Of a DNA stretch of 64,000 bases, positions 47,987 through 49,843 are shown one piece after another. This DNA is from Microthrixaceae bacterium (GTDB lineage: Bacteria; Actinomycetota; Acidimicrobiia; Acidimicrobiales; Acidimicrobilacustridaceae). A program made the translations under genes and the position numbers. The first letter of the stretch is position 1. The number at the start of each line of letters is the position of its first letter. The notes beneath the pieces are model-generated. The model searched no databases, was not told the DNA's origin, and saw only the letters and a list, made by a program, of their open reading frames with translations. The stretch is from positions 1-64,000 of the forward strand of contig CANFQA010000004.1 in the NCBI GenBank assembly GCA_947449015.1, in the 5' to 3' direction.

Positions 47987-48475
47987 TTACTGCCCACTAT
48001 CGGAACGCAAATAGGGCGTGGTTTGAAGGTCGTCAACGAGACGAACAAGCAACCTTCCAAGCTGTTCGCGCTCCTCATCGCTCCACTCGGCGAGCGCGCG
48101 GCTGAGTTGCGCGTTCCGGACCCGCTCGAAGCGCTGCGCGATTTTTCTGCCCGCAGCTGTTGCCTCCACCAAAACGATGCTGCGGTGCTGAGGGCTGGGT
48201 CGTCGATCGACCAAGCCCTCAGCTTCCAGAATTCGAACCTGTCGGCTGACCGCTCCGGTATCCATGCGGGCGGCACGGGCGAGGTCACCAACCGGAATGG
48301 GCTCCCGATCGCCAAGCGCGCGCAGCACGTTCATGGCCTGTTCGGAAAGTTCGACTCCCGCAGCACCCGCCATCCCCACATGGACCCGCCGACTCGACAG
48401 CAGCCGACCCAAACGAGTCAGACCGAGTCGGACCGTGACAAGTTGGTCCTCGAGTGATGGGGATTGACGGGGCAT
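47987..48475 (-). CDS. MarR-family transcriptional regulator
   Basis: 162 aa winged-helix regulator. HTH region with VGDLARAARMDTGAVSRQVRILEAEGLV (about 68-95), wing DRRPSPQHRSIVLVEATAAG, and terminal helices for dimerisation. These proteins bind palindromic operators and are released by aromatic or other small acids. It starts 13 bases after the amidohydrolase stop on the same strand, so it is expected to control its own operon; candidate operators lie at 49720-49785. The start ATG at 48475 lacks a good ribosome site; the long upstream frame overlaps the amidohydrolase and is not coding. Confidence 0.9.
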   Translation of the reverse strand: MPRQSPSLEDQLVTVRLGLTRLGRLLSSRRVHVGMAGAAGVELSEQAMNVLRALGDREPIPVGDLARAARMDTGAVSRQVRILEAEGLVDRRPSPQHRSIVLVEATAAGRKIAQRFERVRNAQLSRALAEWSDEEREQLGRLLVRLVDDLQTTPYLRSDSGQ

Positions 48476-48488
48476 TTGCGGTCGTGAG

Positions 48489-49685
48489 TCAGGCGCGCTG
48501 GAACGCGGGGCTTTGGTGGTCCGGAACCTCGGTAAGTGGCTCGGCGATTTCGGCGACCGTGGGGCCGATCTTGGCAGCGATCGGCGCGAGTGCGTCGAGA
48601 TCGAAGCCGTAGACAGCCGCGGCATTCTCCGAAAGGACCTTGCGCAGGTCAGCTTCGCTCCAGCCTTTGAAGCTGTGACGCAGCGATTCGCGCGACAGCG
48701 GCGAACAGGCCTCGTTATGCGGGTAATCACTGCCCCACATGATCTTGTCCAGACCAATGTCGTGGAAGGTTGCGGCTTCGCCGGGAGACGGGAAACTGGC
48801 GCCGAGGAAGCAATTGCGGCGGAAGTAATCACTGGGCTTGTGCGGAAGCGGACCCGACTTCGGCATACCGATTTCACCAATGCGACCGTTGACCATGGAG
48901 TTGTGAATGTCGTCCATGCGAGTCAGCGCGGGTGGGAGCCATGACGTGCCCTGTTCGGTCATGATGAACTTCAGACCCGGGAAGCGCTCGAACACGCCCG
49001 CCATGATGAGGTGCCAAACAGCACGGTTGGCGAAAAAGCCCGACTCCAGCACGAACATCGTGATCGCCGCGTCATGCTTGCCGTAGTTGGGGATGCCGCT
49101 ACCACCTGCATGATGGGTGATCGACATATCGAGGTCCTGGCACACCGCCCACAACGGGTCGTAGATGGCCGAGAACAACGGATCGATCCAGGGGGTGTCA
49201 GGTGAGACGCCAGGCAGCAGGATCCCGCGAAGTCCTTGCTCGCGGGCCCACTTCACATCTGCAATGGCTTCGTCGACATCGTTGAGCGCGATCTGGGCGA
49301 GTCCGGCTCGGCGCTCGGGAGACTCGGCGACGAAATCCACGAGCCAGCGGTTGTGGGCGCGCAGACCGGCAAGACGCCTCGGGAACTCCTCGGGTGATGG
49401 AGCCGGAGCAATAACCACACCGGTCGGGAAGAACGGCGGGACCGTATTGGGAAAGAGAACCTCGGCAGCGACGCCCTCAGCATCAAGATCGCCGTTGCGA
49501 CGCTCGGTGTCCCAGTTACGGGTGCGACCGTCGTCCTGGAGATCACGGAACGGGTTCTTATAGCCACCGCGCCAAGCGTCGAACTCTTCCTGCATCGGCG
49601 TGGTGAGGTACTCCCGATACTGGGCGTGACTTCCACCGGCGTGACCGTCGGCAGAAATGATGGTGTAGCGGTCCTCAGCAGCCAT
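48489..49685 (-). CDS. Amidohydrolase-2 family hydrolase/decarboxylase
   Basis: 398 aa TIM-barrel metalloenzyme of the ACMSD/2,3-dihydroxybenzoate-decarboxylase-like group. ISADGHAGG at the N-terminus replaces the canonical HxH, ITHHAGGSG holds a central metal His, and IMWGSDYPHNEA the catalytic Asp near residue 320. Such actinobacterial enzymes are typical of aromatic or terpenoid degradation; hydrolysis or decarboxylation cannot be told apart here. ATG with GAGGAG upstream. First gene of an operon with MarR; its upstream region carries a dense array of palindromes. Confidence 0.9.
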   Translation of the reverse strand: MAAEDRYTIISADGHAGGSHAQYREYLTTPMQEEFDAWRGGYKNPFRDLQDDGRTRNWDTERRNGDLDAEGVAAEVLFPNTVPPFFPTGVVIAPAPSPEEFPRRLAGLRAHNRWLVDFVAESPERRAGLAQIALNDVDEAIADVKWAREQGLRGILLPGVSPDTPWIDPLFSAIYDPLWAVCQDLDMSITHHAGGSGIPNYGKHDAAITMFVLESGFFANRAVWHLIMAGVFERFPGLKFIMTEQGTSWLPPALTRMDDIHNSMVNGRIGEIGMPKSGPLPHKPSDYFRRNCFLGASFPSPGEAATFHDIGLDKIMWGSDYPHNEACSPLSRESLRHSFKGWSEADLRKVLSENAAAVYGFDLDALAPIAAKIGPTVAEIAEPLTEVPDHQSPAFQRA

Positions 49686-49719
49686 GAGTTCTCCTCAATC
49701 GTTGGTACGTGTTCGAATC

Positions 49720-49735
49720 GGAACCGATCGGTTCC
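49720..49735. promoter_or_regulatory. Operator-like palindrome GGAACCGATCGGTTCC
   Basis: Perfect 16-bp palindrome 35 bases upstream of the amidohydrolase start, placed at the predicted transcription start. Size and symmetry suit a TetR- or MarR-type repressor dimer; the MarR protein of the same operon is the obvious candidate. Confidence 0.55.
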
Positions 49736-49742
49736 TTTGGCC

Positions 49743-49773
49743 AGATTAGGACACCCAGTCTTGACTGAGTCAA
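49743..49773 (-). promoter_or_regulatory. Candidate promoter with -35 inside a palindrome
   Basis: On the minus strand TTGACT (49768-49773) and TAATCT (49743-49748) with a 19-bp spacer, longer than ideal. The -35 is half of the perfect palindrome TTGACT-G-AGTCAA (49761-49773), itself similar to MarR-type operators. Confidence 0.45.
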
Positions 49774-49785
49774 CACAGCCTGTGT
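49773..49785. promoter_or_regulatory. Palindrome ACACAG-C-CTGTGT
   Basis: 13-bp perfect palindrome directly adjoining the -35 palindrome and overlapping the Crp-type site by three bases; possibly a second operator or part of a composite site. Confidence 0.3.
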
Positions 49786-49798
49786 GATTCCAGTCACA
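49783..49798. promoter_or_regulatory. Crp/GlxR-type binding site
   Basis: TGTGATTCCAGTCACA: perfect TGTGA-N6-TCACA, the textbook consensus for Crp and for actinobacterial GlxR. Its centre is about 54 bases upstream of the predicted start of the amidohydrolase-MarR transcript, a position compatible with activation. Confidence 0.55.
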
Positions 49799-49805
49799 GC
49801 GCACC

Positions 49806-49843
49806 GGGCCAGCGGGCCAGCGGGCCAGCGGGCCAGCGGGCCA
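49806..49843. repeat. 8-bp tandem repeat (GGGCCAGC x 4.75)
   Basis: Four full copies of GGGCCAGC (from 49806, 49814, 49822 and 49830) and a partial GGGCCA. Intergenic, between the Crp-type site and the 3' end of the DUF35 gene. Copy number could vary by slippage and change promoter context. Confidence 0.9.

Follow-up and report, generated by a model that had tools for sequence, protein, structure and literature searches.

The nearest described operator that we found for the promoter analysed here is that of MexR, a MarR-family regulator of Pseudomonas aeruginosa, which consists of inverted GTTGA repeats; the PII site, which overlaps a promoter, holds TTGACCTTATCAA, its palindromes lying 5 bp apart (PMC9892617). 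The operator described below has the same TTGA-N5-TCAA geometry (TTGACTCAGTCAA here versus TTGACCTTATCAA in PII), but it also fixes the inner bases (TTGACT-N-AGTCAA) and one of its halves is the -35 hexamer, whereas MexR targets an efflux operon and has two sites. No chain named MexR is present among the 25 PDB matches of the MarR protein up to E=0.001. PcaV of Streptomyces coelicolor, a MarR repressor acting locally on a catabolic operon, is released by a pathway ligand (PMC6882365). Our locus resembles PcaV and the HpaR-type repressors of aromatic catabolism in placing a local MarR on a catabolic operon, with ligand release proposed here as well, but its palindrome is different, and the HpaR model scores the MarR protein at 32.7 bits, far below the cut-off of 121.2 bits. 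A literature search found no described MarR site matching a TTGACT/AGTCAA or TTGAC/GTCAA palindrome. As to global control, the consensus of GlxR is TGTGANNTANNTCACA (PMC4254451); GlxR of Corynebacterium and the Crp protein Rv3676 of Mycobacterium tuberculosis have an orthologous Crp in this genome, although the central TA is missing from the box found here, which only this genome has in perfect form.

The window, which is the whole stretch of 64,000 nucleotides that was analysed, belongs to a 2.38-Mb draft genome. Of its named relatives, metagenome-assembled actinobacteria come nearest, the closest of them carrying the label Microthrixaceae; the comparison genomes are also drafts. A first-pass annotation had described an amidohydrolase-MarR operon preceded by a stack of four palindromes, through which a promoter was threaded. 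The operon is borne out by the Pfam domains of both products and by a gap of only 13 bp between the amidohydrolase stop codon and marR. The MarR protein scores above the cut-off for both PF12802 (46.9 bits, cut-off 27) and PF01047 (45.3 bits, cut-off 24.6), and its recognition region, MDTGAVSRQVRILEAEGLV, is common to the homologues that carry the operator. An OB-fold/zinc-ribbon gene and a thiolase-like gene, both on the strand of the operon, are found upstream of it. The features of the locus are as follows.

47987 to 48475, minus strand: marR, second gene of the operon (Pfam MarR_2/MarR, E=3e-12)
48489 to 49685, minus strand: amidohydrolase gene (Amidohydro_2, ACMSD-like superfamily; Pfam PF04909, E=8e-31), first gene of the operon
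49691 to 49696, minus strand: Shine-Dalgarno-like GAGGAG preceding the ATG at 49685, aligned across the four closest leaders
49720 to 49735, no strand assigned: palindrome 1, GGAACCGATCGGTTCC, spanning roughly +2 to +17, a function for which is unsupported
49743 to 49748, minus strand: predicted -10 hexamer TAATCT, with a 19-bp spacer; its register is taken from homology to L007 and L008
49745 to 49750, minus strand: alternative -10 CCTAAT, with a 17-bp spacer
49761 to 49773, minus strand: palindrome 2, TTGACTGAGTCAA, predicted MarR operator TTGACT-C-AGTCAA, kept in marR-linked orthologues
49768 to 49773, minus strand: predicted -35 hexamer TTGACT, left half of the operator
49773 to 49785, no strand assigned: palindrome 3, ACACAGCCTGTGT, sharing 3 bp with the Crp box and 1 bp with the operator
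49783 to 49798, minus strand: fourth palindrome, TGTGATTCCAGTCACA, a probable Crp/GlxR box (TGTGACTGGAATCACA) centred at about -54.5, with the exact consensus

All four palindromes lie where they were first placed, and on re-reading of the sequence every one is perfect; palindrome 3 uses bases of both its neighbours, at 49773 and at 49783-49785. Of the perfect palindromes in the window, 42 have arms that are 6 bp or longer. Three perfect palindromes fall inside 66 bp, and three centres within 60 bp of one another arise in 2.7% of random placements, counted window-wide. The stack is odd, but by itself not decisive; since it has a chance of about 3% of occurring somewhere in the window, the decision was left to comparison with relatives, which can split a striking palindrome cluster into its supported and unsupported members. 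Here two sites emerge, a supported MarR operator and a probable Crp box, while palindromes 1 and 3 find no support.

Palindrome 2 occurs exactly once in the genome versus 0.04 expected, and we take it, from its conservation, to be the predicted operator of the neighbouring MarR: it is a promoter-overlapping palindrome of a marR operon and is conserved with marR, so that the local MarR operator proposed at first reading is upheld within the family and beyond. There are 12 family-level orthologues of the amidohydrolase, including that of the window, the other eleven having 82-96% identity. All 12 have a linked marR and a palindrome within three mismatches of TTGACT-N-AGTCAA, placed 55-102 bp before the start codon, and the operator is also present at the more distant marR-linked loci L019, L026 and L050. 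Among homologous loci with a linked marR, 14 of the 15 have the operator before the amidohydrolase with no more than two mismatches (the fifteenth, L012, has three), versus one of the 88 amidohydrolase homologues that have no linked marR (87 of 88 are without it); at the cut of two mismatches the Fisher test of 14/1 against 1/87 gives p=3e-15, a value that ignores shared ancestry. L047 is an exception in having the operator, yet no marR in the stretch examined; its neighbour is a DegT aminotransferase gene, as in L050. In 37 family genomes there are five exact copies of palindrome 2, and four of these are amidohydrolase promoters. The fifth exact TTGACTGAGTCAA copy (L144:1501-1513, genome G032) precedes an APH-type phosphotransferase gene and has no marR match nearby. 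About 50 bp upstream of the L050 operator there are several extra tandem GTCAAC half-sites (TTGGTCAACACTTCCTCAACACTTGGTCAACAC), possibly a multi-site MarR array.

The relation of the operator to the promoter is equally constant. A TANNNT hexamer follows a TTGAYY hexamer at 16-19 bp in 16/16 operator-bearing loci, L047 included, and these leaders contain almost no other TANNNT. The element is thus of the sigma-70 type, with TTGA and TANNNT in all 16 homologous promoters, although a stricter promoter consensus scan reported no promoter at this site. The 19-bp spacer in the window depends on the -10 that is chosen; those of L007 and L008 (TACCTT and TACCGT) both lie at 19 bp. Transcription is predicted to start near 49736. 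The earlier reading was right to see the -35 in one half of the second palindrome and to thread the promoter through the palindromes. By comparison, the predicted operator, its link to marR and its fusion to the -35 and -10 are well established, and the fusion appears to be an old feature of the system. A MerR-like reading of the 19-bp spacer was rejected because the operator lies over the -35 and the spacer is only 16-18 bp long in most homologous promoters. The same two observations bear on whether this MarR activates its promoter and does not repress it. Activation by some MarR proteins is on record, and the 19-bp spacer of this genome is a poor one; but in each homologue the operator overlies the -35, where a bound protein stands in the way of polymerase, and spacers of 16-18 bp prevail in relatives, and we regard activation as quite unlikely.

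Distant homologues, gathered by searching with the MarR protein itself, extend the association. At 36-58% identity the operator lies beside marR or before a neighbour gene (L166, L168, L169, L171, L172, L174 and L188-L191), the neighbour being an aminotransferase gene in L168, L171 and L174 and an amidohydrolase gene in L166 and L169. L188-L191 are from actinobacteria outside the host's order, with a sulfotransferase gene as neighbour (Pfam-tested in L188 only). A variant of the operator, TTGACATAGTC(C/A)(A/G), is present in L182-L185. In L175-L181 and L192, where the recognition region is different, the best operator match has 3-5 mismatches. Genus members G002, G018 and G019 have a marR without an adjoining amidohydrolase gene, in the order thiolase-OB-marR-ADH (as read in L161), and that stretch contains no operator. 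Across these loci the operator follows the regulator alongside varied neighbour genes. Taken together, the loci suggest that an actinobacterial MarR subfamily, marked by MDxxAxxRQ and close variants, uses a single promoter-operator module, in which TTGACT-N-AGTCAA is followed by TANNNT at 16-19 bp, before amidohydrolase, DegT-type aminotransferase and sulfotransferase genes, and that in one freshwater subclade this module acquired a Crp box in phase with the -10; we consider the case for this joint reading to be evenly balanced. The analysis provides an uncharacterised MarR subfamily of uncultured actinobacteria with an operator that is specific and can be tested, and from which the regulon, and perhaps the ligand, may be predictable.

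Palindromes 1 and 3 fare differently, and as regulatory sites they are unsupported, being absent from every orthologous promoter compared. Palindrome 1 is missing from all orthologous leaders compared, and palindrome 3 is palindromic in no relative compared and exists only in this genome, such that we consider it probably incidental. The notion that four sites are integrated here, palindrome 1 acting as the start-site operator of a repressor, whether of the TetR type or another, and palindrome 3 as a further site, draws on the perfection of palindrome 1, which spans 16 bp at about +2 to +17, and on the 2.7% chance of the three-palindrome clustering. Neither palindrome is kept by any orthologue, however, and the 13 GAACCGRYCGGTTC places in the family are mostly inside called genes (eight) or in the trmD-rplS leader (three, in the window's own genome, G010 and G011); one of the remaining two lies between two abutting genes and the other is the palindrome 1 site itself. 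In its own genome palindrome 1 has one exact copy and one that differs at a single position. We could link no TetR gene to palindrome 1, and a TetR operator was rejected, as the palindrome is neither conserved nor repeated before co-regulated genes or tetR. We regard the four-site arrangement as very unlikely. In the trmD-rplS intergenic leader, GAACCG(A/G)(T/C)CGGTTC is conserved in at least three genomes (the window's own, G011 and G010; loci L003/L156 on contig C38 of the own genome, L148 and L150), where it is possibly a ribosomal-protein leader or terminator.

Palindrome 1 might alternatively act as RNA and influence stability or translation, since GGAACC-GAUC-GGUUCC would fold into a 6-bp stem where the transcript is predicted to begin, and a nearby stem is also present in several relatives. 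A conserved leader hairpin is suggestive by eye, but the leaders of 16 loci fold no better than their dinucleotide shuffles (mean z -0.17) and the leader has no match in Rfam, on which grounds it was rejected; a role as RNA seems to us highly improbable. Palindrome 1 as a terminator was also rejected, the scan having revealed no terminator-like site there.

The Crp box calls for closer examination. The genome encodes, at L038:1369-2067, a Crp/GlxR orthologue with PF00027 and HTH_Crp_2 domains, which matches at E=2e-41 structure entries that we take to be Rv3676 and has the recognition stretch GASRERVNKA, versus GASRETVNKA in the Rv3676 type. Here TGTGA-N6-TCACA occupies a regulatory region in a genome that encodes such an orthologue, and the comparison points to 49783-49798 as a probable Crp box. 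The exact motif occurs twice in the genome versus about 0.8 expected, a single-genome count that we rejected as uninformative. Across the family genomes 15 of 20 exact boxes are intergenic, against a background of 14.5% (p=2e-9, with genes called by a simple codon-score model whose training set was nine genes from the window); as they are so strongly intergenic, the motif is evidently used in the family. Among the orthologous promoters, that of this genome alone has a perfect box. In the three nearest relatives, L007, L008 and L009, which retain GAC-N5-TCACA, the box is half-degenerate, with two mismatches; a box within two mismatches is absent from eight of the other 11 family orthologues. 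In the four genomes that have it, the box and the -10 lie 34, 33, 34 and 34 bp apart, while the gap from box to -35 is 9, 8, 9 and 10 bp and the spacer 19, 19, 19 and 18 bp; this constancy, despite the varying gap and spacer, fits a box placed relative to the start site. A centre near -54.5 is not the best-known position for Crp activation in Escherichia coli.

These data also bear on the strongest alternative, namely that the promoter has a MarR operator and nothing more, the perfect box being a chance or decayed match with no role here. About 0.8 exact boxes are to be expected in a genome of such size, and the absence of the box from most of the family orthologues is in keeping with this; the strongly intergenic position of the family's exact boxes, and the fact that L007-L009 retain both GAC-N5-TCACA and the spacing between box and -10, argue against it. 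We consider this simpler promoter a real possibility, if a somewhat doubtful one. This genome and L007-L009 as a group have the longest spacers, a few other loci also reaching 18 bp, which suggests that in this one clade Crp may compensate for a weak promoter.

Our preferred reading, which we consider likely, is of an ancestral, autorepressed MarR promoter to which Crp input was added in one subclade. The two-gene operon, amidohydrolase and then marR, would be autoregulated from this promoter. A MarR dimer is expected to bind TTGACT-N-AGTCAA and, because this operator includes the -35 hexamer, ligand-free MarR would block RNA polymerase; the ligand that releases it probably comes from the linked CoA-dependent breakdown pathway, as a substrate or an intermediate. 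The Crp/GlxR box near -54.5 would have been gained in the subclade of this genome, where cAMP-Crp probably aids a weak promoter with a spacer of 18-19 bp. Palindromes 1 and 3 would be incidental. Of the compact integration point of global Crp/GlxR activation and local MarR or TetR repression envisaged in the first-pass annotation, the MarR operator stands, with repression from it predicted, and the Crp component is plausible, given the orthologue and the box, with activation likewise predicted, while TetR and palindromes 1 and 3 are unsupported. So understood, the promoter is a neat bacterial switch of an ordinary kind.

Immediately upstream of the Crp box, at 49805-49843, is a perfect tandem repeat of CGGGCCAG in 4.9 copies, which occurs nowhere else in the window. 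The other exact Crp box of the genome (L004:1501-1516, contig C2) lies between WhiB-like and GDPD genes; links between WhiB and Crp are known in mycobacteria. Some exact boxes are seemingly common to several genomes, preceding genes for an ABC-transporter permease (L127, L131 and L132), an MFS transporter (L129 and L133) and an Mrp/NBP35-type P-loop protein (L126 and L134), as assigned by Pfam on L131, L129 and L126 only. The L134 box sits within a called ORF. These boxes are candidates for a Crp regulon of the family.
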